Shown here: one piece after another, positions 996 to 17,366 of the stretch | Numbering within the stretch: position 1 is the stretch's first letter | Layout: each line of letters starts with the position of its first letter | Origin: a virus | Length of the DNA: 47,929 nt | Reading direction: 5' to 3' (one strand) | IMG/VR virus record: IMGVR_UViG_3300028024_000127 | Span: 1 to 47,929 of that record | Translations under genes and position numbers: made by a program | Notes under the pieces: model-generated | Told to the model about the DNA's origin: nothing | What the model saw: only the letters and a program-made list of their open reading frames with translations | The model's database searches: none

Positions 996-1170
996 AAGAA
1001 AAACACTCCGTGGATATGTTCCAACAGAGCGATAATCCTTTAGGTTTTTCGCGCTCTGGTTTAAAGCTTAAAATCCACAATGTCCAGATTATCTGGGCTT
1101 TCTACGCACCTACTTCTCCACCCGCGACATCAATACTACCGTCTCAACGTGGAACGATAGCATCAGATTG

Positions 1171-1364
1171 ATGTCTTGAGTGTAATTTTCATTATATCCG
1201 TTCTCGGGAATAAGTCCACACGATTTATCCGTTCTTGGAAACAAGTCCATAGTATTACCTTGAGAAGTCAATTTAGATATTTCCATATTACGGAATGGAA
1301 CGAACCGTTCATTTTTGATGTCTTGGCGTAATTTTACATATATCCATTATGGGAAACAAGTCCA
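1171..1364. repeat. Second repeat family: 24-bp motif in three copies within a 48-bp direct repeat
   Basis: The motif TATCCGTTCTYGGRAAYAAG followed by TCCA occurs at 1195-1218 and 1226-1249 (31 bp apart), and as a diverged copy at 1341-1364. The first and third are each preceded by ATGTCTTG and a T-rich stretch, making imperfect direct repeats 1171-1218 and 1318-1364. As with the 30-bp array to the left, spacing of about three helical turns suggests binding sites for a multimeric protein such as a transposase. Confidence 0.6.
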
Positions 1365-1605: not shown

Positions 1606-2907
1606 TCAATCTTCCTCGGTGGAACTTGCGCCTATTGTTTCAAGGAAAATACTCCGGAACGGTTCATCTAGCGTAGCGCAAACAAGTTCAGCCCACACTT
1701 CGGTACTGAGGCCGCCTCCTTTAACACACCAGACTTTGTAATGCTCGTCACTATACTCGCCGATTGAAATTCCGGTCTGCTGTTCAGCGTCACGATATTT
1801 GGCTTCAAAGACGGCTCTGTTGTACTGATTAACCGAGAAGTCAATATGATCGAATTTTCCAAGCGACGGATAGTACATCCCGTGTATGTAGTTTGTGATT
1901 ATAACGGGTTCCTTTCTGACGAACATCTCAGGATTCCATAGCTGCTCTACATTGAGGTGATAAAACTCCGCTCCATTTTCGTCAGTACCTTTTTTGACGA
2001 AGACGAGAATCTTGTGGAGGGTTTGGGGGTCAAAATGTACAATTGTTTCGTTTCCGCGCTTAATCTGTTCTGCAATATTCTTAAAGTTCAAGGTGATTCC
2101 GCGCCACTTCTGTGCGTCCCAAGTTGCGGTGCTGACTATTTGTGTTTCTGGAACCGCGAGATTTTCGTCACACCTTGTGAGGATTCTTGTCGATGGTTTT
2201 ATGCGCTGTATAAGTTCAATGGTTTTCGGAGCTTCGGGAGTCATGCTGCCGATAGACGTATCGAAGAAAATATTATAGAGATAGTATTTGCCGTTCAATA
2301 TGAAGCCTTGCCTTACAAATTCCGCATCCGTTACGTCGGTCAGACCATACTTATCACGCGGCAGTTTAAGACGCTCGTGGTCGAGTATTTCGTCAACGTC
2401 GTAAATCCGGCATACACAGCTTTCAACAAGCCGACAAATGAATGCGCAGATGAGGCGATCTATGTCAACATCGAAGTTATCGGCATAGGTAATTTTCCCG
2501 TCAGCCGCGTCCAAGACGGCGGCCTCATGGGCGAACTGTCCAGTACCGCGATATGTAATGATTTTACCGGCTGACGCAAGATATATGCGGTCTCCGCCGC
2601 CGCTATCGTCGGGGTCGGGCTGGAAACAAAAGCGGAGCAGTTCCTCCATAGCGAGGCCGACGCTTTCAAGCATGGTTCGAAACTTGGCTGCTTCCTCACG
2701 TAGCGGAAGCGGTAAAATGTGTCCGCTCTGAAACAGTCGAGAAGTCGAATATGCATAGTTTTTCAAAAATAAGTTGGGAAAGGTGTTGCGAAATACTCCT
2801 CCGTGCGGCGCTTTTTTCATGGAACGCAAGTAATAGTTGATTCTCCAAAACTCCGGCGTGGCTATCACATCGGAGATAAAGGTTTTCATTTTATCGGTTA
2901 AAATCAT
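1606..2907 (-). CDS. Conserved-looking protein of unknown function, last gene of the restriction/SbcCD operon
   Basis: This 433-residue cytoplasmic-looking protein has no signal peptide or membrane segment. No domain was recognised with confidence. A C-terminal stretch (about residues 350-375) contains a D-H-I-D phrase followed by an E-A-K triplet. That is compatible with, but far from proof of, a PD-(D/E)XK-type nuclease core. The ATG at 2907 overlaps the stop of a 41-codon open frame upstream (ATGA), so translation was probably coupled to a gene now mostly lost. The ribosome site is weak (GGGGGA). It sits 155 bases after sbcC in the same direction, which makes it a candidate effector or accessory factor of the system. 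Confidence 0.75.
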   Translation of the reverse strand: MILTDKMKTFISDVIATPEFWRINYYLRSMKKAPHGGVFRNTFPNLFLKNYAYSTSRLFQSGHILPLPLREEAAKFRTMLESVGLAMEELLRFCFQPDPDDSGGGDRIYLASAGKIITYRGTGQFAHEAAVLDAADGKITYADNFDVDIDRLICAFICRLVESCVCRIYDVDEILDHERLKLPRDKYGLTDVTDAEFVRQGFILNGKYYLYNIFFDTSIGSMTPEAPKTIELIQRIKPSTRILTRCDENLAVPETQIVSTATWDAQKWRGITLNFKNIAEQIKRGNETIVHFDPQTLHKILVFVKKGTDENGAEFYHLNVEQLWNPEMFVRKEPVIITNYIHGMYYPSLGKFDHIDFSVNQYNRAVFEAKYRDAEQQTGISIGEYSDEHYKVWCVKGGGLSTEVWAELVCATLDEPFRSIFLETIGASSTEED

Positions 2908-3029
2908 ATTGCGTCCCCCGCACTCATTGGCGCAAACCCCATCTCTTCAAGCATTGTGTTGAAATCGTCAATTGGTAGCGCATAACAACCGTTCAGGAGG
3001 GCGGGTACGCTTGGCGCTTTTAGACACCG
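2904..3029 (-). pseudogene. 3' remnant of a lost gene between sbcC and the 433-residue gene
   Basis: A minus-strand frame is open for 41 codons after a TGA at 3030-3032 and ends at 2904, inside the start codon of the next gene (ATGA). Its peptide ends ..LPIDDFNTMLEEMGFAPM.. and reads like the C-terminal tail of a real protein, but it has no start codon or ribosome site. The likeliest explanation is that a gene once lay between sbcC and the 433-residue gene and was deleted. Confidence 0.4.
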
Positions 3030-3062
3030 TCAACGAGTGCTTGGATTTCAGATCTGGTCGCG

Positions 3063-5828
3063 TCACACTAAGATCACGGCTTTGCTTCCGCCGCAGCGTT
3101 CTTTGGTAACCACAATCTTTTTCTCTATTTTTTCATCCAACCCGGCGACGTGTGAAATGATACCGATGAGACGGTTAGCCTGTGAGATGCTCACGAGAGC
3201 TTGCATCGCCTGTGCCAGTTTCGTTTCATCTAATGAATCAAAGCCTTCATCGACGAACATGGAGTCGAGGCGGATGCCCCCAGCGTTGCTTTGGATTTCA
3301 TCGGAAAGTCCAAGAGCCAGCGACAGCGAAGCGATGAAAGATTCGCCGCCTGACAATGTTCGTGCATCACGTTCGGTGCCGTTTACGTGGTCAATAACAT
3401 TCAAGTCTAACCCGCTTTGACCTTGCTTGCCGCCCTCGCTACGCCGCTTAAGTTCAAATTGCATATTAGACATTTGCAGCAGTCGCAGATTAGCACGTGC
3501 AATGATACTGTCAAAATAAGCTGCTTGGATGTAGGTCTCCAGCTTGATTTTCGCCTTACCGGCGATGTCGCCGTTGGCGGTATCTGAGAGTTCTCGGAGC
3601 CACATATAACGGGTTTCTAAAGCAGACAGCTTCTCAGCTGCTTTGCCCATGCCGTTCCATGCTGTCTGATTAGTTGACTGGCGTGTGGATATTTGCTGAT
3701 TCTGTTTTGATAATTCGCGCTGAGTGCTTTCGAGGGTTTCTTTTTCTTTCTTTATCGCATCATAGTCAAGCGGTTCAACGCCCGCGAGTTGCCCTTCCAA
3801 CGTTTCAATCTCGGTGGTCGTTGCATTTGCTTTGCCTTTTGCGGTATCTAATGTTGCCTGAGCAGTGGCGAGCGCCTCTTCAAAGGCTTTCGTCCTTTTA
3901 CCAAGAGTAGTGATTTCGGCGTTCGCAACTTCTTCGCTCTTAAATTTAAGCTCGGAGGCTTTATCATCGCGTTGTTTGATGTCAGCGGTGATTTGTGTTT
4001 CAAGAGTCGCTACCGCTTTTTGAGCATAATTCAAACTCTCGGCAGTAGTATTCAGGGTCGTTTCGAGTTCAGGGATTTGTTCTTCCAGAGTTGCTTTGCG
4101 CGAAGCCCTCGTTGTTTGCTCTCCAAGCTTTGCCTCTATAACTGAAAGCTCATCCGTCAACGCAGAGAGGGCTTCTCCCAAGGCGGTGGGTATTGCTTCA
4201 AAGTCAGGTTCGCCTAACAGTACAGTCGCAGCGGAGATAATTTCGCCTTTCTTGGTTTCGGATTGTCCTTTAAGATTGCTGGCAAACCCGCTGGCATCCG
4301 TGGTGTCTTTCTCCGCTTTCTCGGCGGTTTTCTTGGCTCTATCCAGTTCCGCTTTGGTCGGGGCTTTGTCCGATAAGACGGCAAGAGCGGGATGCTCAGT
4401 TGAACCGCATACGGGGCAAGGATCACCGTCGTGCAATTCTGCCGCCAACACGCCCGCCTGCTCGTCGAGGTAGGCACGATTCATCCGCTCGAATTCATCA
4501 CGCAATTGAGTGGAAAGCTCTGCTTTGCCAGTGTAATCATCCTGCGCGTCCTTGAGGGTTTCAAGTAACTCGGCATAGGCTGCTAGAGAGGCTTGTACGG
4601 AAATCAGACTTGTCCGCTTATTCGTCAACGCGTTCTTTTTTCCGTTCAAACCCTCAATGATTGCCGCAACATCCTCTAAGGTCTTGAGTTCTTCCTTTTC
4701 CGTTTTGAGGCCTTCATTGCCTATTTTCTGCTTTTCAGTTAAATCGATGACTTTTTGTTTTTCGGTGGTCAGCTTGACGTTATTTGAGGAAATGGCATCG
4801 ATAAGAGCCTGCAACTGCTGATACTTTGGTAACGACGCTTGAATCTCAGCGATTTGAGCCTTCACCGCATCGAGTTCAGGCTGTTTCGCTTTTTCTGCCT
4901 TGAAAGATGTTTCAGCTTCGGTCAAAGCAGACTTTTCCGCGGGCAAACGGCTTTTTGCCGCTTGCAACGAAGCTCGAGCCTTTTTGTCCTGCTCCGCCTG
5001 CCCTAATCGCTGATTAATATCGCCGAGTTTTTCGCGAAGATCATTAAGCAAACCATCATTGGTACAAATTATGCTTCGGTCGGTTTCGATCAAATTTGCA
5101 AGCCACTCGATTGTATCTTGGGGTGACAGCAGCCCTTTCTTGGCTTCAGCTAATTTCTGAATGCTGTCGGCATCATCTGCATCCACCTGAATATTGCCAA
5201 GGTTATAGTTATAGCCGCTCTTTTCCTGCTTGATATCAGCGACAAGGGCGTTTGCATCTTGCTTAACACAGTCTTGAAACTTTTTGTATTTGTCGGTATA
5301 AAAAATCTTGCGGAAGATTTCTATGCGTTCTTCCGTGCTGGCATGGAGGACTTTCAGAAACTCACCCTGCGCAATCATCGCTATCTGAACGAACTGGTCA
5401 CGGGTGAGCCCCAGTATTTCCACTATCTTTTTATTAACTTCTGTTAATCGTGCAATGGTACGACCCTCGGGTAAATCCAATATAGCGTCTGCTTGTTGCG
5501 TAGTCGTGCCATCGCCACGCTGCTTCGCCCGTTCATAGGTTGGACTACGCTTTACCCGATAGTCCTTTCCATGATAATTGAAGAAGAATTCGACACTGGT
5601 TTCCGCATCCGACTTTGCATATTTGCTGCGAAGCATACCCGGTTCGCGATTGTCGCCGCTGGGTTCGCCATATAGCGCAAACGTGATTGCATCAAATATT
5701 GTCGTCTTGCCCGCTCCGGTATCTCCGGCAATGAGATATAGCCCCTCTTCGCCGAGCAGGGTGAAGTCGATTTCTTCCTTGTCGGCATAGCACCCGAAGG
5801 CGGACATGGTTAATTTCTGAGGTTTCAT
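3063..5828 (-). CDS. sbcC: SbcC-type ATPase subunit of the SbcCD nuclease (Rad50-like)
   Basis: This 921-residue SMC-like ATPase pairs with SbcD to cut hairpins and blocked DNA ends. The Walker A motif GDTGAGKTT is at residues 35-43. A long coiled coil flanks the zinc-hook CPVC at 471-474. The ABC signature LSGGES is at 825-830 and Walker B with D860-E861 follows. Length is within the usual SbcC range (about 850-1050). The ATG at 5828 overlaps the sbcD stop (ATGA) behind a GAGGAGG site, so the two are translationally coupled. The unusual feature is the setting: directly downstream of a Type III-like restriction gene rather than in a housekeeping locus. All key motifs are intact. Confidence 0.93.
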   Translation of the reverse strand: MKPQKLTMSAFGCYADKEEIDFTLLGEEGLYLIAGDTGAGKTTIFDAITFALYGEPSGDNREPGMLRSKYAKSDAETSVEFFFNYHGKDYRVKRSPTYERAKQRGDGTTTQQADAILDLPEGRTIARLTEVNKKIVEILGLTRDQFVQIAMIAQGEFLKVLHASTEERIEIFRKIFYTDKYKKFQDCVKQDANALVADIKQEKSGYNYNLGNIQVDADDADSIQKLAEAKKGLLSPQDTIEWLANLIETDRSIICTNDGLLNDLREKLGDINQRLGQAEQDKKARASLQAAKSRLPAEKSALTEAETSFKAEKAKQPELDAVKAQIAEIQASLPKYQQLQALIDAISSNNVKLTTEKQKVIDLTEKQKIGNEGLKTEKEELKTLEDVAAIIEGLNGKKNALTNKRTSLISVQASLAAYAELLETLKDAQDDYTGKAELSTQLRDEFERMNRAYLDEQAGVLAAELHDGDPCPVCGSTEHPALAVLSDKAPTKAELDRAKKTAEKAEKDTTDASGFASNLKGQSETKKGEIISAATVLLGEPDFEAIPTALGEALSALTDELSVIEAKLGEQTTRASRKATLEEQIPELETTLNTTAESLNYAQKAVATLETQITADIKQRDDKASELKFKSEEVANAEITTLGKRTKAFEEALATAQATLDTAKGKANATTTEIETLEGQLAGVEPLDYDAIKKEKETLESTQRELSKQNQQISTRQSTNQTAWNGMGKAAEKLSALETRYMWLRELSDTANGDIAGKAKIKLETYIQAAYFDSIIARANLRLLQMSNMQFELKRRSEGGKQGQSGLDLNVIDHVNGTERDARTLSGGESFIASLSLALGLSDEIQSNAGGIRLDSMFVDEGFDSLDETKLAQAMQALVSISQANRLIGIISHVAGLDEKIEKKIVVTKERCGGSKAVILV

Positions 5829-6964
5829 ACGGTCGCCTCCTCGAATATTTCGTTGAACAGGCCGGTGACATAGGCTGATTGTTCATCGCTCAGCGGTTGC
5901 CCATTTTGCATTTCAAAGAAGTCTCCAAAATGCTGTGCGGGTGATTTTTTTTCGGTGGGTGCTGCCGTTGTGAAGTCGGGTGCCGCTTGGGTGCGTTTGT
6001 TGTCATACTCCAAGCACATCAGGTTTGGGTACACCATTTCCAGTTTGCGGCGAGCGTCCGGTTCTTCGTGTTCATCGATCAAGACAATCCGGACATAGTC
6101 GTCGGTGTTTATGTTGCGGTGAAATTCACGGCTCATAAGTTCGTTATACGTGCCGCGAATCACCCGCATCTCATGGATTGGTTCAAGTGGAAGCTCGGAT
6201 ATAACAATCTCGCCTTTGCCAGCAATATCAACGACAGTGACAGACTTGTGGTCATTCGCCTCGGAGAAAGAATATTTCAGCGGTGTACCGCAGTAGCGCA
6301 GGGTTTCACGCCCGATGTGCTGTGGGCGGTGGAGATGCCCCAGTGCCACATAATCAAACGCATCAAAGAGCGAACCGTCCACGTTTTCCGATCCGCCGAT
6401 ATACAGTTCCTCGGATTCGCTGGTCTCTGCTCCCGTAACGTATTGATGGGCGATAAGGATATTACGGGCTGCGCGGTCAAGTTCAATATTAGAGAGGGCG
6501 GCTGATAGTGCGTCTGTGTATGTAACAATGTCCCTGCCCTCAAAATGCCGTCGAACAAGAGCGGGCTTCAAATATGGCAGCATCCACACGTTTAGATCGC
6601 CGTGTTCATCGCTCACTGGGATAGGGGCGAGTTTGCCTTGATAGGACTGGACAATATGTACATTGCTGTTTTTTAGCAGGGCAGCCCCAAAAGCAACTCG
6701 CTCCACGCTGTCATGATTGCCGGAAACCATAAAGACGGTAATACCCAGTTCGTTGAGCCACACGAGAAATCTGTCCAATAGCTGCACCGCCTCAACCGTT
6801 GGCATGGATTTGTCATAAACATCGCCCGCAATCAGAACGGCATTCGGTTGATTCTCTTTGGCAAGCACGACGATTTTCTGCAAGATGTCCATTTGATCAT
6901 CCAGCATTGAAACTTCGTTGACACGCTTGCCGAGGTGCAAGTCTGAGAGGTGGAAAAACCTCAT
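5825..6964 (-). CDS. sbcD: SbcD-type exonuclease subunit (Mre11-like phosphoesterase)
   Basis: This 379-residue calcineurin-like phosphoesterase is the nuclease half of SbcCD. Metal-binding motifs are all visible: D8-x-H10, D48 in AGDVYD, GNHD at 82-85, H173, and GHLH at 209-212. The C-terminal third is the capping/SbcC-contact region. The ATG at 6964 has an AAAGGAGG site 10 bases upstream. The gene lies only 27 bases after the Res-like gene and overlaps sbcC by 4 bases, so it is part of the same transcript as the restriction genes. Confidence 0.93.
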   Translation of the reverse strand: MRFFHLSDLHLGKRVNEVSMLDDQMDILQKIVVLAKENQPNAVLIAGDVYDKSMPTVEAVQLLDRFLVWLNELGITVFMVSGNHDSVERVAFGAALLKNSNVHIVQSYQGKLAPIPVSDEHGDLNVWMLPYLKPALVRRHFEGRDIVTYTDALSAALSNIELDRAARNILIAHQYVTGAETSESEELYIGGSENVDGSLFDAFDYVALGHLHRPQHIGRETLRYCGTPLKYSFSEANDHKSVTVVDIAGKGEIVISELPLEPIHEMRVIRGTYNELMSREFHRNINTDDYVRIVLIDEHEEPDARRKLEMVYPNLMCLEYDNKRTQAAPDFTTAAPTEKKSPAQHFGDFFEMQNGQPLSDEQSAYVTGLFNEIFEEATV

Positions 6965-6991
6965 GTAGTAACTCCCTCCTTTATAATAGGC

Positions 6992-9739
6992 TTAATCAAG
7001 CCTTGCTTGCACTGGGACAGTTAGGTTTGCAAGGTAGGTGAAACTTGAGTTGGGGCGGATGTCGTCATGAGAGATGAGCAGATATCGCCACGGTTTGCCG
7101 CCATTTTCCCCATTGAACTTGCTGGCGGCACGGCAATACTCCTCAGCCGCCTCTTTCTTTTCCAACACGTCTACGTCAGCTAAGTTGCGGCTGGCTTTTG
7201 GCTCACACATATAAATGCAATCGCCGGTTTCTACAATAAAGTCCGGTTCGTATTTGCTTGCACCGCCTTGCCCCCAGTAGATGTTGAATTGCCGGGGAGC
7301 GGGGCGCAACCAACGCAGCACGGCTTTGTCGTTTTCCAATACGACGGCAAAGGTGCGCTCGGTGTCGCTGTCAAATTTATAAAGCGAGTGTCCAGCCTTG
7401 CGGAAGCCGCTGAATATCTTGGATTTCACCTCGGAAGCTGCCATGGTCGCGCGCAGATCGTAGATTTCATCCGACATAAACTTGCCGCCGAAGCTCGACT
7501 CAATTCGGGTGAAGGGGCGCATATTCGCCGCCTTATAGCTGACTTCTTCTTTGTAGAAATGCTCGTTCATCTGGGCGTAGATGATGTCGGCAATGGTGCG
7601 CTGGCGGTCACGCATAACCTTTTCGGTTTCTTCCTCACTCAGGTACGACAAAAAGTGCTTCTTAGCAGCTTCGATAAGCGAGTAAATGAGTTCGGCGCAG
7701 TCTCTGTAATCCACGTTGTCGTGGACGATGATATGGCGGACGATTTCATTCTCCACTGTGTCTACCTGTGTGAAAGCGGCTGTGCCTGTATCCAACGTGA
7801 AAGTTTTACCGCCCTCCTGCAATTCCGTACCGAGCAACGTATCGCCGGAGGGGTGCCAGTTCATGTTACGGGTATCCAGCGTAAAATCAGAAAATCCACG
7901 CTTGACCTCGGTGTGCGGTTGAATAACCGACTGAGGGATCGGAATAACATTGTCGGTGAGGGCCTGGGCGCAGGTTGCCACTGCCGCTTGAACCACAGCA
8001 TTGATATCTTCTTTTTTCAAATCAAGCTCCGGCCTTTGCTGGATGACTTGAGAAACGATGTTGTTTGCCACCCACGCTTGAGTGGCGGGTTCTTGGATGT
8101 CGGTAATATTGCGCACCTGACGGTTTACTTCAACCACAGCTTTTGCGGTTATTTTTTGAATAAGAGTAGCGATCTGCAAGGTCTGGTCAGGCGTGTGCCG
8201 GTCGACGAATTCAGGCGTTGCGGTTTCTTGCAGGGTAAGCACCAATTGCTCGGCGAAACTACTTGCTCCGGTTAGGTCATCATAGACTGTAGGCAGTTCA
8301 ACCGTTACCCGCTCATCCTCGGTGTCGGGTGCTGCCTGCTCCTCAATATAATACACCTTGCGGACAAGCGAATTCGGGTCGTTTGCAAGGTCGACAATGG
8401 CTTGATAGCGGTCGTGGCTGACGATGGAAAGGCGGTCGACTTCGTCAACGCCCGTTCGCTGTCCGTAGGGCAAGCGCAGCCCGCGCCCGATGGTCTGCTC
8501 GGTGAGGGTTTCGGAAGCTGAGGTACGCAGCGGGATAATAGTATAGAGATTCGTCACATCCCAGCCCTCCTTGAGCATATTGACGTGTATGACGATCTCG
8601 ATATTGTTATCAGGATGTTCCAGCGACAGCAGCAGCTCGATGTTCTCGTCCTTTTCACTGCCGCGCTGGGCGGAGTTGATTTCCAGCACCTTGTCTTTAT
8701 AAGAACCGCGGAAGAAAGCATCGGATACGACGTAATCCCTGATTTCTTTGGAGTGTGCGGTATCTTTGGCGACAACCAGCACGAAGGGCTTGACGATGGG
8801 CTTGCCGTGGGTTCGGGCGTAGACATCCAGTTGGCTCTTGGTTTCTTCATGCAAGCGAATACCGTCGTTGAGCTTTTCGCGGTCAAGTTGCTGTTGGGTA
8901 TATTCTTCCGCGCGGAAATCGCGGCGGGTAAACACGGTGGGGACTTTTACATACAGCCCGTCATTGAGCGCGTGGGCAAGGGAATATTCATACACCACGT
9001 TCTTGAAGTCGATTTTCCTTGCGCCATTTTGAATCTGCGGCGTGGCGGTTAGCTCCACCCCCAAAATGGGATGTAGCTCGTTGATGGTGTCAAACCCGCG
9101 GTCGGCGTGGTAATGGTGGCTCTCATCCATGAAAATGCACAAGTCAGGCAGTGCCTGCAAGTACGAGAAATAGGACTGACCCAGCACCTCCTGCAAGCGG
9201 CGCATACGCCCGCTTTCAGAATTCAGTTTGCTGATATTGAAAATGTTGATGGTGACACTGCTCGCAAGCACATCTATTTGCCGGAACTCCTCGTAGTTGT
9301 CGCCGTCAATAATGCGTGGCGGCGTAACGAACTTATCCAAACCACGGAACACGTACTTGCCGCTTGCCGGCTTGCCTAGGTCGTCTTTGAGCTTCTTATA
9401 GATCGTAAGGTTGGGAGCCATCACGAAAAAGTTGTTAATGCCCTTTTCATAGTGCAGATAGGCAATCAGCGCACCCATCAGACGGGTTTTCCCGATGCCC
9501 GTGGCAAGGGCAAAGCAAACCGATGGGAAGTCCCGCTCAAAACTCGTCAGCGTCGGGAACAACTCACGGATTTTGACAAGCTCGTCATTCAGGTCAGGCG
9601 TTTTACTAAGCGACAGGATGTCCGCTATACGAGCGAACCGCTCCAAACTCTCACGTTGGGGCGGCCGCAGGGCAAGCACATTGTTGATGTACTTTGACCA
9701 GTAGGTATAGGCTTTTTCGGAATAAGGCTCTCTAAGCAT
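6992..9739 (-). CDS. Type III-like restriction endonuclease, Res subunit
   Basis: This 915-residue SF2 helicase is fused to a C-terminal nuclease. Walker A ATGIGKTR is at 79-86, the DEAD-box-like motif DESHHY at 205-210, LTATP at 230-234 and motif VI QTIGRGLRLP at 415-424. A PD-(D/E)XK nuclease is indicated by P832-D833 and E846-x-K848, as in Type III Res proteins, which translocate or signal along DNA from a Mod-bound site and cut at a distance. Its ATG at 9739 overlaps the end of the methyltransferase gene by 8 bases and follows a GAGGAGGAA site. Mod-then-Res order is the classic Type III layout. The subtype and recognition site cannot be read. Confidence 0.9.
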   Translation of the reverse strand: MLREPYSEKAYTYWSKYINNVLALRPPQRESLERFARIADILSLSKTPDLNDELVKIRELFPTLTSFERDFPSVCFALATGIGKTRLMGALIAYLHYEKGINNFFVMAPNLTIYKKLKDDLGKPASGKYVFRGLDKFVTPPRIIDGDNYEEFRQIDVLASSVTINIFNISKLNSESGRMRRLQEVLGQSYFSYLQALPDLCIFMDESHHYHADRGFDTINELHPILGVELTATPQIQNGARKIDFKNVVYEYSLAHALNDGLYVKVPTVFTRRDFRAEEYTQQQLDREKLNDGIRLHEETKSQLDVYARTHGKPIVKPFVLVVAKDTAHSKEIRDYVVSDAFFRGSYKDKVLEINSAQRGSEKDENIELLLSLEHPDNNIEIVIHVNMLKEGWDVTNLYTIIPLRTSASETLTEQTIGRGLRLPYGQRTGVDEVDRLSIVSHDRYQAIVDLANDPNSLVRKVYYIEEQAAPDTEDERVTVELPTVYDDLTGASSFAEQLVLTLQETATPEFVDRHTPDQTLQIATLIQKITAKAVVEVNRQVRNITDIQEPATQAWVANNIVSQVIQQRPELDLKKEDINAVVQAAVATCAQALTDNVIPIPQSVIQPHTEVKRGFSDFTLDTRNMNWHPSGDTLLGTELQEGGKTFTLDTGTAAFTQVDTVENEIVRHIIVHDNVDYRDCAELIYSLIEAAKKHFLSYLSEEETEKVMRDRQRTIADIIYAQMNEHFYKEEVSYKAANMRPFTRIESSFGGKFMSDEIYDLRATMAASEVKSKIFSGFRKAGHSLYKFDSDTERTFAVVLENDKAVLRWLRPAPRQFNIYWGQGGASKYEPDFIVETGDCIYMCEPKASRNLADVDVLEKKEAAEEYCRAASKFNGENGGKPWRYLLISHDDIRPNSSFTYLANLTVPVQARLD

Positions 9740-11303
9740 CTTCCCATTCCTCCTCGTCCAGTTCGGGAGGATTGACGGTGTTCAGGTTGTAATCCTCCAC
9801 GCCGTATTCGCACTTATCCAGCACCGACTGCGGGATTTTGCGCACCTGAATGTTGTCGTAACGCTTGCTCAGCCCCACATCAAACGCCGGGGCGCAGATA
9901 AGCAGCCGCTCATACTCGGGTAGTTCTCTTGCGATTTCGTCCAGCTGCGAAGCCGTAAGGTATTCTGTGGTGACAAAGATGTAGCTTTGGTCTTGGCTTT
10001 TTCCTTGCTTCCAGAAAACTTCCGAGTCAGGGGCATAGCCGTAACCATTGAGCTTGGCAACGGCGGCAACCAGCATTTGCGCGTTGTATCTATCGCTGAT
10101 GACGGGCTGTCCGTGTTTGTCGGCAACAATTAGCGTCGGCGCAAGTTCATAAAACTTGAACCCGCCGCCACCCTGCCAGTTGTGTGCTTTGGAGATACCG
10201 CCTTGTTCACCGTCCACCACGGCTTTGAGGCGTGGCAAACAGTGGGTGTAGCAATGGTCGCCCAACTCGACGCCTATATATCGCCTGCCCATCTTGTGAG
10301 CAACCGCTGCGGTTGTACCGCTGCCGAGGAAGGAATCAAGGACGAGATCACCGGGGTTGGATGCAATTTTTAATACACGCTGAATTAGCCGCTCTGGTTT
10401 TGGAGTATCAAAAACATTGAATGCCCCAAATAACGCCAATATTTCTTTTTTAGCTTCCTGATTATGTCCTACTTCTTTATTGCTCCACCAAGTCCAAGGC
10501 ACTACTCCCTCATGTTCGCTTAAGTACGTTTTTCTGCGAGGCATGGCCTTTCCATCTGCCCCAAACCAGAACCGCCCTTGTGCTAACTGCTCCAAGTAAA
10601 CAGATTCAATGTTTTTCCAGCACTTTCCTGCGGGCGGAGTAAAAACCGATCCCCCTGGAGTCGTAATTGAATACATTTGATTTGGTCTATAACCCTGTGC
10701 GGTAAAATCTGCAGATGTCCACGGCCCTCGCGAATCATTATCCGGGTTACTATAATTGCTGGCTTGTTCCTGGCTCAGTGGCAATTTATTGCGCGACTTT
10801 TTGAAAGCGTCCGGGTTCTTAGCGTATACGAGAACATAATCATGCCCATCGCTAATTGTGCCCCTCATATCAGGGGAGGTTCGTTTTTGCCAGACAATGG
10901 TAGTAATGTAGGATGGCCGTGAAAAGACTTCATCGCATAAAACTTTGAGGTATGCTTGTTCGTCGTCATCAATACTGATCCAGATGCTACCGTCCTCGCT
11001 AAGTAAATTCCAAAGTATTCTTAGACGCGGCACCATCAACGACAACCACGTGGAGTGTTCAAGGTTATCATCGTAGTGTTCGAATGCACTTCCAGTATTA
11101 TAAGGCGGATCGATATAGATACACTTCACGCGCCCTGCGAACTCCTGCTCTAAGGCTTTCAGCACCAGCAAGTTATCGCCGTGGATCAGCATATTGTCAG
11201 CGGCAGGGTCACCGTAGTCCTTTGAAGCGTCATGCAGCAATATGCGCGGCTCCACCGCAGGTTCCTGCCCCTTGCCAATCCAAGTGAGTTCTAATTTCTG
11301 CAT
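9732..11303 (-). CDS. Type III-like N6-adenine DNA methyltransferase (Mod)
   Basis: This 523-residue amino-methyltransferase of beta type has the catalytic motif IV DPPYNTG (65-71) before the AdoMet-binding motif I, DSFLGSGT (323-330). It is predicted to methylate adenine in a short asymmetric site and to supply target recognition to the Res subunit. The target-recognition region would be the 130-300 segment between the two motifs. The C-terminal portion (from about 390) is a further domain also seen in Mod-like proteins. The ATG at 11303 has a GGAGG site. It follows the SNF2 gene by 14 bases and overlaps res by 8. Both catalytic motifs are intact. Confidence 0.9.
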   Translation of the reverse strand: MQKLELTWIGKGQEPAVEPRILLHDASKDYGDPAADNMLIHGDNLLVLKALEQEFAGRVKCIYIDPPYNTGSAFEHYDDNLEHSTWLSLMVPRLRILWNLLSEDGSIWISIDDDEQAYLKVLCDEVFSRPSYITTIVWQKRTSPDMRGTISDGHDYVLVYAKNPDAFKKSRNKLPLSQEQASNYSNPDNDSRGPWTSADFTAQGYRPNQMYSITTPGGSVFTPPAGKCWKNIESVYLEQLAQGRFWFGADGKAMPRRKTYLSEHEGVVPWTWWSNKEVGHNQEAKKEILALFGAFNVFDTPKPERLIQRVLKIASNPGDLVLDSFLGSGTTAAVAHKMGRRYIGVELGDHCYTHCLPRLKAVVDGEQGGISKAHNWQGGGGFKFYELAPTLIVADKHGQPVISDRYNAQMLVAAVAKLNGYGYAPDSEVFWKQGKSQDQSYIFVTTEYLTASQLDEIARELPEYERLLICAPAFDVGLSKRYDNIQVRKIPQSVLDKCEYGVEDYNLNTVNPPELDEEEWEDA

Positions 11304-11317
11304 ATCTAAAATCCTCC

Positions 11318-14179
11318 CTATACGATCTCAAACGAGAAGGTCATGATGGTTTCGGTTTCAATCTCGCCGTTAAGACGTTGCCGGATATCTTCCTGCAACC
11401 GCTCATTTTCCGTGTTGATGCGGTCTTCCTCCAGACTGATGTCCCGCTCCATCTTGCGGCGTTTGTCTTCCATTACCGTAATTTCACTGCGTAGTTCCAG
11501 CATAGCGTCCAGCGTCAAGGCGTCTTTTGAGGTGCGGAACACTTTGCGCTTTTCGGTGATTTCTTTTTTCAATATTTTGAGTTCCTTTTGCAAGCCCTCT
11601 TTCAAGTCCTCGCTGTATGCGTCCAGCTTTTCAACCTGCTCTAAGAAATAATTCTTGTTGCGGTCGGCAATGTCGTCCTTCTGCTGTTGAATCCCGGCGT
11701 GCCGCGCCCGAATCAGAGCTTCTGTTTCCGGCGAGCATACGCCAACAACAGCGGCTTGCAACTCCATAATGCGGGCGACCATATCGGCATCCACATCCGT
11801 GCCGTCCTCGGTGACCACGGAAAGGATGAGGTGTTCCTCGTTCTGGATACCCTTGTGGGTAAGCTTGTCCACAGAGAGAACGCCGCGCAAGTTGGGGTGG
11901 GTATCCAAAAAGCTGATATGCTCGGCTTGCGGCAATGACGAATGGGTGAACTGTATGGCGGCGGGCGCAACATTGGTTTGCATCGCTTGTGTCAGCCAAG
12001 TATGGCAAAGCTCACCATCACGCCGCAGGAATTCGTCGCGGTGTTCTTCCGCATCCCGCCAACGCAGGTTATAGGTTTTGCGTTCGCCGTTTTCTATGTA
12101 AGCAAACCGCCACTCATTCAACGGCTCAACCCGCTCGGCACCCCACATAATAAAGAAATCACACAACCAGCGGCTGAATTTATCTAGCCCGGCTTTGGTA
12201 TCATCATGGCAGCCTTTCAGGTGGGTTGCAACATCTTCGTCGAAGTTTTCTAAGATGGAATGCCGTGCTTCTGCTATTCTTTCGTTTATCTGCTCGGAAA
12301 GCTCGTCCTGCAAAGCGTCAAACGCCGCCTTGATCTCTTCTGGACTGCGGCAGGACTGATAAATCTCCAGTATGCGTCTTTCAAAATCCACGCCGTCTTC
12401 AATCGCACCCAGCACCTCGTCCGATGAGCCGAACACGCCATCAAACAGACTGAACTTTAGCGAAAGGATTTCGAATACGCGTACATCGGCGGCATTAGCG
12501 CGGTTGAGGAAGTTGATGACGATGACATCGTTCTTTTGCCCATAGCGGTGACAACGCCCGATGCGCTGTTCAATACGCTGCGGATTCCACGGCAGGTCAT
12601 AATTGACCACAATGTTGCAGAATTGCAGATTGATACCTTCGGCGGCGGCTTCCGTACCAATGAGGATAGAAGCGCGGTCGCGGAACTCTTCAACGATTGC
12701 GGACTTTCTATCGGCGGAGATTGAGCCGGAAGCAGCACCATCGTTCTTGTGCCGTTCTTTCCATTCTTTATATACACGAGTGGACACCAGGTCAGTGTTC
12801 GAACCGTCTAGAAACACGATTTGCCCGTCATAGCCATGCTGCGAGAGCAGGTTCATCAAGTAACGCTGTGTGCGTTTAGATTCAGTGAAGATGACGGCCT
12901 TTCTTTTTCCGCCCAGCCTTTCGTTCATCTCAAAGCCTTTGTCGAGGGCAAGTAGTAGATTGTCACCCTTGGCGTTTGTCTGGATGCTGTTGGCAAGGTC
13001 AGCGTAGCGTTGCAATTCTTCTATCTCTTTTTTAATAGCTTCACAGTCGGCTTCGATTTCTTCTGTCGCCCCGGCATCATCACCACCTGATTCTTCATCA
13101 ATGAGTTCTTCTATCCCGTCATAATCGTCAAGGTCGCCAGGTTCGAGCAGTGCGGTGTAATCGTTGAGCTTCAAGTTCAATCTGTCGATAACCGTGGACA
13201 ATGTCCCATGGATAGCCATTGAGGAGGATGCCAGCAACTTGCGGGCAACCAGCATCAGCAGCGTTCGCTGCCTTTGCGGGAAACCGTAGAGGTTGTCGCG
13301 CTGAAGGTATTCCGACACGCTATTGTAAAGTTCCTCTTCCGCTTGGCTTGGGGTGTATTCCTGTAAAATAGCAATACGGTCTGTATAGGGAACGTACTCC
13401 CTCACTTGATGTCGCAGGGTACGTTTGCAAAAGTTATGCAGTCGGCGTTTTAATTGTTGGTTACGCACATCAATGTCGGGAACGCCGTTAACATACAGCT
13501 CACGGAAAACATCCGCGCTGCCGAAAACTCGCTCGTCGATAATACTGACCAACCCGTAAAGCTCCATCAGGTTGTTTTGCAGTGGGGTTGCGGTGAGGAG
13601 AAGTTTTTTGCAATTACGCAGCGCATTCTTAATGTTCGCACCCATTACGTTATTGCGTTTATACACATTACGCAGCTTGTGCGCCTCGTCCATGATAACC
13701 AAGTCCCAGTCGATGGCTCGGATATCGTTCATCTTTGCCGAAGCAAAATTATATGAACAAATTACTACAGCATCGTTAACCGCAAAGGGGTTGCAGCCGG
13801 GGTTATCCTTTTTTGCTTTGTTATAGTTCTTTGATTCCAGTATTTCAGAGCGAATGAAGAATTTTTCTTCAAGCTCGGCTCTCCATTGCGTTCTAAGGGA
13901 AGCGGTGACAATCAGCAGAATTTTTCGCTTGCGTTCCGACCAACACTGCGCCAGCACAAGCCCCGCTTCAATCGTTTTGCCCAGGCCAACCTCATCCGCC
14001 AACAACGCCCCCGTCGATAAGGGCGATTGCAACGCAAACAAAGCCGCATCCACTTGGTGGGGGTTCAAATCGACCTTAACCCCGGACATGGAAGAAGCCA
14101 ACCCTTGTATTGTGTGTTGCGGCCGTTTTAGCATAAGCTGTTCAGCAAAAAAACGAACCTGATGAGGCGTATAAGGCAT
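11318..14179 (-). CDS. SNF2/HepA-type DNA translocase in the restriction operon
   Basis: This 953-residue SNF2-family ATPase resembles RapA/HepA and the DrmD helicase of DISARM class 1. Walker A is in ADEVGLGKTIEAG (61-73), DEAH at 164-167, LTATP around 195-199, and motif VI QRIGRCHRYGQ at 538-548. An acidic insert lies near 350-380 and a strongly charged coiled coil near 830-930. SNF2 proteins translocate on duplex DNA without unwinding it. It is the first intact gene of the operon, 14 bases after a truncated regulator. The DISARM partners DrmA, DrmB and DrmC are absent, so it belongs to a different assembly. Confidence 0.9.
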   Translation of the reverse strand: MPYTPHQVRFFAEQLMLKRPQHTIQGLASSMSGVKVDLNPHQVDAALFALQSPLSTGALLADEVGLGKTIEAGLVLAQCWSERKRKILLIVTASLRTQWRAELEEKFFIRSEILESKNYNKAKKDNPGCNPFAVNDAVVICSYNFASAKMNDIRAIDWDLVIMDEAHKLRNVYKRNNVMGANIKNALRNCKKLLLTATPLQNNLMELYGLVSIIDERVFGSADVFRELYVNGVPDIDVRNQQLKRRLHNFCKRTLRHQVREYVPYTDRIAILQEYTPSQAEEELYNSVSEYLQRDNLYGFPQRQRTLLMLVARKLLASSSMAIHGTLSTVIDRLNLKLNDYTALLEPGDLDDYDGIEELIDEESGGDDAGATEEIEADCEAIKKEIEELQRYADLANSIQTNAKGDNLLLALDKGFEMNERLGGKRKAVIFTESKRTQRYLMNLLSQHGYDGQIVFLDGSNTDLVSTRVYKEWKERHKNDGAASGSISADRKSAIVEEFRDRASILIGTEAAAEGINLQFCNIVVNYDLPWNPQRIEQRIGRCHRYGQKNDVIVINFLNRANAADVRVFEILSLKFSLFDGVFGSSDEVLGAIEDGVDFERRILEIYQSCRSPEEIKAAFDALQDELSEQINERIAEARHSILENFDEDVATHLKGCHDDTKAGLDKFSRWLCDFFIMWGAERVEPLNEWRFAYIENGERKTYNLRWRDAEEHRDEFLRRDGELCHTWLTQAMQTNVAPAAIQFTHSSLPQAEHISFLDTHPNLRGVLSVDKLTHKGIQNEEHLILSVVTEDGTDVDADMVARIMELQAAVVGVCSPETEALIRARHAGIQQQKDDIADRNKNYFLEQVEKLDAYSEDLKEGLQKELKILKKEITEKRKVFRTSKDALTLDAMLELRSEITVMEDKRRKMERDISLEEDRINTENERLQEDIRQRLNGEIETETIMTFSFEIV

Positions 14180-14193
14180 AGTGGTTACTCTCC

Positions 14194-14316
14194 TTACTTC
14201 TGGTCAGTCATCTCCATAATATCCGATATGTCGCAGTCTAACGCGCGGCATAACTTTTCGAGAATTTCGGTGTTTACATTCTCGTTCTTCCCAAGTTTAG
14301 TGATGGATGCTGAACT
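14194..14316 (-). pseudogene. XRE-family regulator, C-terminal 40 residues only
   Basis: Immediately upstream of the SNF2 gene a minus-strand frame encodes SSASITKLGKNENVN and on to DISDIMEMTDQK. That is the second half of a small Cro/CI-type helix-turn-helix protein (recognition helix plus dimerisation part). A TAG precedes the first serine codon and no start exists, so the 5' half is gone or replaced. Its stop lies 14 bases before the SNF2 start, behind an AAGGAGAG site. It was probably the operon's own repressor and first gene. Confidence 0.6.
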
Positions 14317-14639
14317 CTAATGCTTGCCACTTAGGGAGGCCTTTTTTCTTTAAATCACTGCTCGGGAAGGAGCAAAGGATTATTGGGGAGGTCGCTTTTT
14401 TAAGTACGTCGGCACTTAATATGGATGTGCTGATTATTGCGCCCAAGATATACATCCCCTCACAAGGAAAATTAAAGTAATATATTATTAATTTCCAATC
14501 CCAATAATTGCCCTAAATATTATATCAAATAATATCATCTATAAACCATATTGATCTTTCATCTTTCAACAAAAACAACCAGGATTCTATTATAGGTATC
14601 GAGCATCGAAGATTCTGGATCGGGGAAAATATTTACCAT
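14317..14639. other. AT-rich spacer between the defence operon and the SOS operon
   Basis: No convincing gene is present. A 57-codon plus-strand frame (14307-14480) overlaps the XRE remnant on the opposite strand and has no ribosome site. It may be part of a short repetitive insertion that destroyed the regulator. The 14480-14640 portion is very AT-rich and would suit divergent promoters, but no minus-strand promoter of good quality was found. Confidence 0.45.
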
Positions 14640-14689: not shown

Positions 14690-14706
14690 TAATATCAGAG
14701 GAAGTG

Positions 14707-15966
14707 ATGCCTATGCCGGACCGTTCCATACTGCACGTGGATGTAAATGCATGTTATGCGAGCATTGAGTTGCTGCATCGGCCCGAGCTGCGCGGGCTTC
14801 CCGTTGCCGTCGGCGGGGATGCGGAGGCGAGACATGGCATCATACTCGCAAAATCCGAGGAAGCCAAGGCCTTTGGCATTAAGACAGGAGAGGTACTCTG
14901 GCAAGCGCGACAAAAGTGTCCTAATCTTGTGGTGCTCAAGCCGAATTACCAGTTGTACCTGCGCTTTAGCCGGATGTTGCGAGAGCTGCTTGTCGATTAC
15001 ACGGATCAAGTGGAGTCCTTTGGGTTGGACGAATGCTGGCTTGACGTTACTGGCAGCACCCATCTTTTCGGAAGCGGGACAGAAATCGCGGAGAAAATCA
15101 GAGAGCGGGTCAAGCGCGAGCTGGGCGTTACGGTATCGGTTGGGGCATCGTTTAATAAGGTGTTTGCTAAGTTGGGTAGTGATATGAAGAAGCCCGATGC
15201 GGTAACCGCCATCGGGCGTGAGGATTATAAAGAGAAGGTCTGGCCGCTTCCAGCAGAGGAACTGCTTTACGTGGGGCGTTCAACCAAACATCGCCTGAAT
15301 AAGTACGGCATATTCACCATCGGCGATATCGCCAGGGCCGACCCGGCACTGCTGCAAAGCTGGTTCGGCAAATGGGGGTTGGTGTTGAACTGGTTTTCCA
15401 ATGGCATGGATAGCTCCCCCGTTGCCCGAGCGGGGGATGAAGCTGTCATCAAATCCATAGGCAACAGCACCACCACCCCACGAGACCTTACATGTGAGCA
15501 GGACGCGAAAATCATATTCTATATGCTCTCAGAAAGCGTAGCCTCGCGCCTACGGGAGGCCGGGTTCCGCTGTAAAACGGTGCAGATTAGCCTACGGGAT
15601 AATGAACTTTTCTCATTCGAGCGGCAGATGATACTTTCGCAGCCCTCCTGCATTTCCGGTGAGCTTTGCGTCGCGGCGATGAAGCTGCTGCGTGGGAATT
15701 ACTCCTGGCAGAAACCGCTCCGAAGCATCGGTATACGTGGCTGCGATCTTGTCCCCGTCGGAGCGCCTGCGCAACTTACTCTTCTTGAGGATGAAAACCA
15801 GCGAATCCGGCGGGAGCAACTGGAGCATACGGTGGACGATATCCGTCGGAGGTTCGGGCATTACTCCATCGGCCGGGCGGTAAATCATCTGGATACCACG
15901 CTGGGGAGAATCGATCCAAAGGGCGACCACACCATCCACCCGATAGGCTTCTTTAGGGCTATGTAG
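14707..15966 (+). CDS. Y-family translesion DNA polymerase (DinB/UmuC-like)
   Basis: This polymerase of about 419 residues lets replication pass damaged bases. The N-terminal catalytic motif has D and V residues in ILHVDVNACYAS, where DinB proteins carry HxDxxxFFAxVE. The second acidic patch, SFGLDECWLDVT, supplies the D-E pair. A helix-hairpin-helix region and the little-finger domain follow. Possible starts are GTG 14704, ATG 14707 and ATG 14713; the GAGG site at 14698 fits either ATG. Regulation by the LexA box upstream is clear. The next small gene follows by 10 bases. It resembles the chromosomal or element-borne SOS polymerases of Clostridia rather than a UmuC with a UmuD partner. Confidence 0.92.
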   Translation: MPMPDRSILHVDVNACYASIELLHRPELRGLPVAVGGDAEARHGIILAKSEEAKAFGIKTGEVLWQARQKCPNLVVLKPNYQLYLRFSRMLRELLVDYTDQVESFGLDECWLDVTGSTHLFGSGTEIAEKIRERVKRELGVTVSVGASFNKVFAKLGSDMKKPDAVTAIGREDYKEKVWPLPAEELLYVGRSTKHRLNKYGIFTIGDIARADPALLQSWFGKWGLVLNWFSNGMDSSPVARAGDEAVIKSIGNSTTTPRDLTCEQDAKIIFYMLSESVASRLREAGFRCKTVQISLRDNELFSFERQMILSQPSCISGELCVAAMKLLRGNYSWQKPLRSIGIRGCDLVPVGAPAQLTLLEDENQRIRREQLEHTVDDIRRRFGHYSIGRAVNHLDTTLGRIDPKGDHTIHPIGFFRAM

Positions 15967-16247: not shown

Positions 16248-17246
16248 TTATACTTCATATTTCCGCACCATTTCTGCAATATCTGCCTTCACCAGTTCCC
16301 TTAGTTCATGAGGTTCCAGCACCTCACAATTAGGACCGTATTGTAGCGCAAAGAATCGCACACCTTCGATCGCAGCCTTTAGGCGGACTTCCATATAATC
16401 ATCATCCAGATCCCTTACTTTAACATCATATCCGAAGGCGTCTATAACAACTCCGGCCAATCGTTTGTTCATCTTTAGCACAATCTGCTCTGTTTTACCG
16501 CCGAACATGAGATTGTGCTCGGCAGCATATTGGGCGATATTAAGGCCGCTTTCGCAACCGGGAATCTCGGTGATCGTCCTCGCCGGTTTATCCCGCATTT
16601 CTATTTGTGTTATCCTGTCCAGCCGATAATGTATGAGGTGATCATATTTCCGAAAACTCGCGATCAGATAATACTGTCCGTTAGTACAAACAATAGCATA
16701 CGGATGCACAACATCCTTCGCTTTTCTTACCGGGGTTAGGGTCTTATCAGTAGACATTTGGTTATAAAAGAATGCGACCTGCCGTGATAAGGCAATTGCC
16801 TCATCTATCACTGACAAACTAAAAAAGAACTCCCGGTTACGCTGGTGCCTTCCTTCGTGGAAAGTATAAAGGTGCTTCATCCGGCCTCTGAACTGTATGT
16901 TTGATAGTGCCTCCAGTTTTTCAACCAGATGCTTGGCGTTGCTGGCCGGGATGTATTTTGATATCAGAACGCTGTCGATCAATACCCTCAGTTCCATATC
17001 ATCGAACTCGCGCGACGCAAGATAAGCGCCTTCTCGATTTTCTTCATAAGTGCTGATGTCATAGCCCATCTCGCATAGCAAGGATATGTTCTGGCCGACC
17101 GCTTTCCTTGCGGCCTCAATACCATACTCCTGCTGTAGCTTTCTGATAATATCCTTATAAGTCAAAGGATGACAGGGATCAGAGTAATCCTTTAGTATTT
17201 GAAGTATGCAAAGCGGGAGCGCTTTTTTACCGCCGACGAAAGGCAT
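16248..17246 (-). CDS. WYL-domain transcriptional regulator
   Basis: This protein of about 332 residues has an N-terminal winged helix (LTYKDIIRKLQQEYGI, then KAVGQNISLLCEMGYDI) and a WYL-type ligand-sensing domain. The latter is seen in VHPYAIVCTNGQYYLIAS and the RLDRI phrase near the middle, followed by the C-terminal WCX extension. WYL proteins often sense nucleic-acid ligands and control defence or repair loci. ATG 17246 is preferred over ATG 17252 because AGGAG lies 8 bases upstream of it. The gene converges on the Y-polymerase operon, with only 16 bases between the two stops. Whether it belongs to the prophage or the chromosome is unclear. Confidence 0.88.
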   Translation of the reverse strand: MPFVGGKKALPLCILQILKDYSDPCHPLTYKDIIRKLQQEYGIEAARKAVGQNISLLCEMGYDISTYEENREGAYLASREFDDMELRVLIDSVLISKYIPASNAKHLVEKLEALSNIQFRGRMKHLYTFHEGRHQRNREFFFSLSVIDEAIALSRQVAFFYNQMSTDKTLTPVRKAKDVVHPYAIVCTNGQYYLIASFRKYDHLIHYRLDRITQIEMRDKPARTITEIPGCESGLNIAQYAAEHNLMFGGKTEQIVLKMNKRLAGVVIDAFGYDVKVRDLDDDYMEVRLKAAIEGVRFFALQYGPNCEVLEPHELRELVKADIAEMVRKYEV

Positions 17247-17366
17247 ATCCATCTCTCCTAAAAGTAATCAGATTATTGAAGATGGTTCACTAATTTTGAA
17301 GCGAGTATTCCAAGCAACATTAAAAGGCCGACAGTGACGACTCGCGATAATCTATACATATCAGTT

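Follow-up and report, generated by a model that had tools for sequence, protein, structure and literature searches.

Type III restriction enzymes such as EcoP15I, EcoP1I and LlaFI are characterized by an ATP-dependent cut that falls 25-27 bp from one site of an inversely oriented pair. They pair a beta-class N6 methyltransferase (Mod), with its recognition domain between DPPY and FxGxG, with a Res subunit that carries SF2 helicase motifs and a C-terminal PD-(D/E)xK nuclease, and mod and res are adjacent in one operon. DISARM is defined by the presence of DrmA, DrmB and DrmC, and SbcCD is a double-strand break repair nuclease. Hma and other BREX-related systems centred on DUF499 need a DUF499 AAA+ ATPase together with an N6-methyltransferase and an SNF2 helicase (PMC12839542). 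Accessory defence genes can be inserted in restriction operons, as seen for PrrC in PrrI, MORC/paraMORC and HEPN genes (PMC3710099, PMC2292703).

Here we analyse positions 1 to 47,929 of the IMG/VR virus record IMGVR_UViG_3300028024_000127 (47.9 kb, hereafter the window). The left of the window carries, on the minus strand (14179-3063), a restriction cassette of five intact genes, SNF2, Mod, Res, SbcD and SbcC, and siphophage genes (exonuclease, DNA polymerase A, VapE-type primase, terminase, portal and tail) follow from about 17.8 kb onward. Families were assigned with Pfam, PADLOC and NCBIfam profiles, and the features are collected in Table 1. An earlier sequence-only reading had proposed a tightly spaced operon of these five genes and a sixth encoding a 433-residue protein, u433. 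All six open reading frames are indeed present in this place on one strand, and recurrence of the five-gene order in six other loci makes the arrangement more than chance. Tight spacing holds from SNF2 to SbcC, where the gaps run from -8 to +27 bp (SNF2-Mod 14 bp, Mod-Res -8, Res-SbcD 27 and SbcD-SbcC -4), but not for u433, which is exempt because it lies 155 bp behind SbcC. A terminator scan between sbcC and u433 found none, a promoter scan returned weak promoter-like sites only, and Rfam and tRNA searches of the window gave no matches.

Table 1. Position and supporting evidence of the features of the restriction cassette and the adjoining slot in the window.
Feature	Position	Strand	Evidence
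Remnant of the cassette's 68-aa XRE regulator	14197..14340	-	tblastn of intact L004 XRE, 79% over residues 23-68
SNF2-family translocase, DrmD_b-like, 953 aa	11318..14179	-	PF00176, PF00271; NF038318 683 bits, cut-off 950
Mod, Type III beta-class adenine methyltransferase, 523 aa	9732..11303	-	PF01555; PADLOC MTase_III 577 bits; PDB 4zcf, 6k0w
Putative target recognition region of Mod, residues 111-300	10404..10973	-	11-49% identity to cassette homologues vs 76-95% either side
Res, SF2 helicase and PD-(D/E)xK nuclease, 915 aa	6992..9739	-	PF04851; PADLOC REase_III 576 bits; PDB 4zcf_C (EcoP15I Res)
SbcD, Mre11-type nuclease, 379 aa	5825..6964	-	PF12320; TIGR00619 above cut-off; PDB SbcD entries
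SbcC, Rad50-type ATPase with CPVC zinc hook, 921 aa	3063..5828	-	PF13476, PF13558
C-terminal scrap of another gene, stop overlapping u433 start (ATGA)	2904..3020	-	Read from sequence; putative cargo-exchange scar
u433, cargo of the exchangeable slot behind sbcC, 433 aa	1606..2907	-	No match in Pfam, PADLOC, NCBIfam or PDB sequence; relatives 41%, 28-29%
88-bp element, far side of slot	1129..1216	.	blastn: 82% to L004 21533-21620

The catalytic motifs reported as intact for the SNF2, Mod, Res, SbcD and SbcC proteins were all found in the sequence: DEVGLGKT, DEAH and QRIGRCHRYGQ in SNF2; DPPY and FLGSG with a variable region in between in Mod; GIGKT, DESH, QTIGRGLR and PD...ExK in Res; D8/H10/D48/N83/H84/H210/H212 in SbcD; and Walker A, the CPVC zinc hook, LSGGES and FVDEGFD in SbcC. 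Across six loci, the motifs of Res, SbcD and SbcC show little or no variation. The XRE remnant is likewise confirmed: residues 23-68 are left, with an internal stop and the N-terminus lost. In cassette relatives an intact 68-aa XRE precedes SNF2, as in locus L004. Near the restriction family, XRE occurs paired with an ImmA/IrrE-type gene (L004:2012-3131, L038:1847-3026, L005:1734-2838 and L064:735-1827), with and without SbcCD; the Peptidase_M78 (ImmA/IrrE-type) partner was tested in L004 and L038. This pair may be a regulator of the restriction family. Further genes adjoin the cassette. A Y-family (ImpB/MucB/SamB type) DNA polymerase gene (14704-15966, plus strand) separates the promoter region of the cassette from a WYL regulator gene (16248-17252, minus), and in the Aeromonas locus L024 a WYL gene directly precedes SNF2. 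At the other end, a defence-like gene (79-774, minus, 231 aa) matches PADLOC BnzB with 142 bits, its residues 34-171 aligning to the middle of the profile.

Comparison with described systems places the locus nearest to Type III. Its Mod and Res share the domain arrangement given above and match EcoP15I Mod and Res in the PDB, and the two genes overlap by 8 bp. Unlike these enzymes, the cassette adds an SNF2 translocase in front and SbcD-SbcC plus an exchangeable slot behind. The SNF2 protein is nearest to DrmD_b (NF038318) and, as in the DrmD-containing class of DISARM, is linked to a methyltransferase. However, DrmA, DrmB and DrmC, which the sequence-only reading had noted as missing, are absent among the operon genes in Pfam, PADLOC and NCBIfam, Res is present instead, and the DrmD score stays below the equivalog cut-off (683 against 950 bits); DISARM was therefore rejected. 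Hma and BREX share the SNF2 helicase and methyltransferase operon, but no DUF499 match was found in Pfam or PADLOC and Mod is of Type III, and this filing was rejected as well. The principle of inserted accessory genes is that of the PrrC and MORC-type restriction operons, except that here one clade has SbcCD as a constant accessory, behind which another slot remains exchangeable. Similarly, SbcD and SbcC have all the catalytic and zinc-hook motifs of SbcCD/Mre11-Rad50 and YhaO-YhaN-type pairs and differ in forming a separate clade tied to Mod-Res. By its predicted gene content, the cassette is a variant of Type III-like restriction and not DISARM or Hma. In the literature searched we found no named system with this gene set, in agreement with the sequence-only reading, and no publication joining SbcCD, "type III restriction" and phage.

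Relatives were sought with Res, using the best 79 of at least 587 candidate matches in a genome collection together with 20 viral loci and plasmid records. Among these listed matches, SNF2-Mod-Res is a widespread module found in many phyla. The full order SNF2-Mod-Res-SbcD-SbcC recurs in L004 (= L042), L029, L032 and L038; L031 has the same order but a shortened SNF2, next to a serine recombinase, and L030 keeps order and spacing up to a contig end inside sbcD. Including the window, seven loci among the Res matches listed carry the cassette, mostly from draft bins. Every listed locus with a full-length Res at least 77% identical, and with sequence present behind it, has SbcD, and this SbcCD was found in none of the listed loci with Res at most 74% identical. 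Gene order and spacing are kept even though Res is only 77-83% identical across the cassette loci, and the -8 overlap of Mod and Res is also seen in L004, L036, L038 and L043. The proposal of an extended restriction system thus stands, since the five genes recur together and are co-inherited. The search for the same six-gene order elsewhere recovered five of the six: u433 is in no other cassette. One carrier, L029 (JAHKLX010000070.1), is filed as a Micrarchaeota bin. Its SNF2 is 97% identical to that of L004, which makes the label doubtful; near identity in SNF2 and Res to a Desulfobulbaceae bin probably reflects a binning error or a very recent transfer.

The SbcCD pair of the cassette forms a group of its own. 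Cassette SbcD proteins are 69-74% identical to the SbcD of the window, compared with about 52% for the best unlinked SbcD (Clostridia), and none of the 29 best other Clostridia SbcD has a Res within its 1.5-kb flanks. The cassette SbcD proteins are monophyletic with support 100/100, a result independent of two wrongly picked rows in the tree (L118 and L134). The L118 SbcCD, on a viral contig beside phage genes, was rejected as a cassette member: it looks chromosomal, with host-like genes flanking it. Strict profile searches of 399 Bacillota, 188 Synergistota and 194 genomes of the G006 class, plus 291 Clostridia (about 1070, some overlapping), returned no unlinked cassette-type SbcD, with matches only in genomes already known to hold the cassette. 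The check for an SbcCD that is unlinked, or kept in place without the restriction genes, therefore leaves the linkage standing, as cassette-type SbcD was never seen without Res. SbcD scores above the TIGR00619 cut-off, and the matches to TIGR00618 and to the lineage equivalogs fall below their cut-offs, as expected of a divergent clade. The description of this pair as a private second copy was not supported: in each of the six host assemblies checked, all of draft quality (genomes, single-cell or metagenome bins), no protein other than the cassette SbcD passes the TIGR00619 cut-off, and this SbcD could therefore also serve the host.

Trees and substitution rates indicate that these genes share a history. 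Res and SNF2 trees each contain a cassette clade with support 100; the SNF2, SbcD and SbcC trees pair the window with L032, and L004 pairs or groups with L029 and L038 against window-L032, apart from weakly supported or open forks. Between L004 and L029, dS is 0.40 for SNF2, 0.50 for Res, 0.63 for SbcD and 0.48 for SbcC, with dN/dS of 0.03-0.15. In view of the missing unlinked copies, the separate clade, and the age and main branching shared with SNF2 and Res, SbcCD is, as judged by these comparisons, a fixed part of the cassette. Mod is the exception (dS 2.28 between L004 and L029, and a discordant tree) because residues 111-300 have been exchanged. In L031 this region is 69-76% identical to that of L005, which is not a cassette member, and 13-34% identical to those of cassette members. 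Since Type III enzymes read DNA in this region, the specificity of the cassette seems to have changed repeatedly through it. In sum, these data show that the five genes are co-inherited and subject to purifying selection, and that the recognition region of Mod and the accessory slot can be swapped.

The slot behind sbcC is occupied on the same strand, from a 31-bp overlap to 155 bp away, by different genes in each locus: a PLD-like protein and an SF2 helicase in L004, an Mrr-type nuclease (PADLOC PDC-S02) and an OLD-type ATPase in L029, a DUF4357 protein (PADLOC PDC-S14) and a protein of unknown family in L031, and a Schlafen/AlbA_2 protein in L038. The slot genes of L004 and L029 are unrelated, and the PDC-S14 type also stands directly behind Res in L034 and L005, both without SbcCD. 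In the window, the slot holds u433, which had been taken for an accessory or effector of the system. This role was rejected: u433 is absent from every other cassette, where other genes occupy its place, and its nearest relative (41%) belongs to a different defence island, which has no SbcCD and in which CBASS genes (cyclase, E1-E2, JAB) stand on one side of it and two Pycsar-type cyclases on the other. At that locus (L154:212-11446) the relative follows two short open reading frames (230 and 68 aa), which may be a single gene split by a frameshift. No relatives were found in phage and plasmid collections, and the structure prediction of u433 (mean pLDDT 49, pTM 0.35) was too poor for a fold search. 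Its absence from other cassettes and its relative in a CBASS/Pycsar island lead us to read u433 as a travelling defence-island gene that fills the exchangeable slot. Consistent with exchange at this place, the gene scrap next to u433 would be a scar of cargo exchange. Short direct repeats found by a repeat search (913-1002 and 1195-1371) lie beside the 88-bp element, which may mark the border of such exchange.

The cassette travels on different carriers. A phage replication module adjoins the cassette in both the window and L004, in the same layout, so that related prophages carry it in these two cases. In L038 it stands beside a tyrosine integrase and a TraI-like/LPD7 protein, and in L031 it adjoins ssrA (tmRNA), with serine recombinases. 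In the wider family, the gap between SNF2 and Mod exceeds 600 bp in 37 of 67 complete loci and that between Mod and Res in 15 of 67. The gaps hold coiled-coil SMC/Rad50-like or OLD ATPases, YhcG nuclease, Schlafen and Abi proteins, and others. A module of the form SNF2-[cargo]-Mod-[cargo]-Res is widespread. Coiled-coil ABC-type ATPases of 758-791 aa occupy the SNF2-Mod slot in L051, L063, L068, L070, L100 and L107, with no SbcD partner. A Salmonella resistance plasmid (L025, NZ_CP100694.1) has the order SNF2, IS, Abi-family gene, Mod and Res near floR and tet(A), and L086 has two Mod-type methyltransferases in tandem, the extra one (5789-7405) placed between SNF2 and Mod.

Two distant loci place another Mre11/Rad50-type pair next to Res. 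In a Planctomycetota bin (L095:12707-16467), an Mre11-like phosphoesterase and a Rad50-like ATPase lie 15 bp behind Res on the same strand; on a Sphingopyxis plasmid (L187:11693-15426, NZ_CP012701.1), such a pair is convergent with Res at 29 bp. The two pairs are related to each other and only distantly to SbcCD. The front slot of L095, a distant SNF2-cargo-Mod-Res locus, also holds a Schlafen-type gene. At a rough guess of one to two such pairs per 3500 genes, at most 0.1 would be expected in about 75 other loci, a figure that defence islands would raise. None was found in the 1.5-kb flanks of 23 further Planctomycetota matches and five of a Clostridial order, and we therefore regard the Mre11/Rad50 linkage as repeated but rare.

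After a cut 25-27 bp from their site, Type III enzymes stay on the DNA and are sequestered (PMC3874151). EcoP15I, another Type III enzyme, is held on its product in vitro, and exonuclease releases it to cut again (PMC3874151). A block of bound protein stimulates SbcCD: the nuclease cuts about 20-25 bp inward of the block and, in addition, digests 3'-5' (PMC6265447). The retention of Type III enzymes at ends and the clipping of blocked ends by SbcCD fit together, and for this reason we prefer a clip-and-release reading. The retention of Type III enzymes on cut DNA is a long-standing observation, and their release by exonuclease in vitro reportedly goes back to Raghavendra and Rao (2003), cited in PMC3874151. 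The best explanation, which we hold to be slightly on the probable side, is a mobile restriction cassette of five genes plus an exchangeable accessory slot, with SbcCD clearing cut ends blocked by Mod-Res. From what is known of the family, Mod and Res would act as a Type III-like enzyme. Host DNA would be methylated, and unmodified DNA would be cut once the enzyme, driven by ATP, has found a second site. Mod-Res would then remain near the cut, and turnover would stop until the product is removed. SbcCD could clip the blocked end about 20-25 bp inward and digest the fragment, destroying invader DNA and freeing Mod-Res. The weakest link is SNF2, possibly a RapA/DrmD-type double-strand translocase that clears proteins from invader DNA or aids movement of the enzyme. 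The slot gene (u433; elsewhere nucleases, an OLD ATPase or a Schlafen-type protein) would be an independent second-line defence. Beyond co-inheritance, we infer these steps, and we count against them that most members of the wider family manage with no linked SbcCD and that the XRE regulator is broken in the window.

Joint function is not the only way to account for the linkage. A host repair sbcCD may have landed once behind a Type III operon and spread along with it without any common role, and a single origin would indeed account for the whole cassette clade. The cassette SbcD is also the only clear SbcD in its host assemblies, and SbcC evolves faster than Res. We nevertheless judge such an accident unlikely, because order and spacing persist at 77-83% Res identity, on different mobile elements and in assemblies of several phyla, and because the gene right behind sbcC is freely replaced while SbcCD, under purifying selection in both genes, stays. 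The two further loci in which a different type of Mre11/Rad50 pair adjoins Res also speak against it.

Phage T4 gp46/47 has a role in replication and recombination, and the SbcCD of the cassette could in parallel serve its carrier phage, with Mod-Res merely adjacent; the replication module common to the window and L004 agrees with this. However, the same SbcCD stands beside the integrase and TraI-like genes of L038 and the ssrA and serine recombinase genes of L031, it is oriented with the restriction genes and opposite to the phage replication genes, and it has so far never been found in phages without Mod-Res. The virus record L005, moreover, has an SNF2-Mod-Res relative without SbcCD, and a phage function is in our judgement very improbable. 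A mobile restriction system that enters an unmethylated host risks self-cutting, and SbcCD, given its repair role, might mend breaks made by the restriction enzyme in unmethylated DNA of the host, for instance after transfer to a new one. The host's own recombination enzymes would serve equally well for such self-protection, which we consider rather improbable, and the present data do not separate it from end clearance.

The clearance of blocked ends by SbcCD thus remains our preferred reading. A bolder version of it, tentative and in our estimate somewhat short of even, would be a new extended Type III class in which SNF2, Mod-Res and a dedicated SbcCD act as one machine that turns a normally single-turnover restriction enzyme into a multiple-turnover one, with a plug-in slot for second-line effectors, and for which Mre11/Rad50 pairs have been recruited repeatedly. 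If true, an operon with its own nuclease for protein-blocked ends would be the genetic counterpart, and a direct test, of exonuclease release in vitro, and Mre11-Rad50 enzymes, usually repair factors, would be placed inside a methylation-guided defence. The cargo slots of the widespread, unnamed SNF2-Mod-Res module are a place to seek new defence genes, and the SbcCD-linked cassette suggests how restriction enzymes may be cleared from the ends that they have cut.
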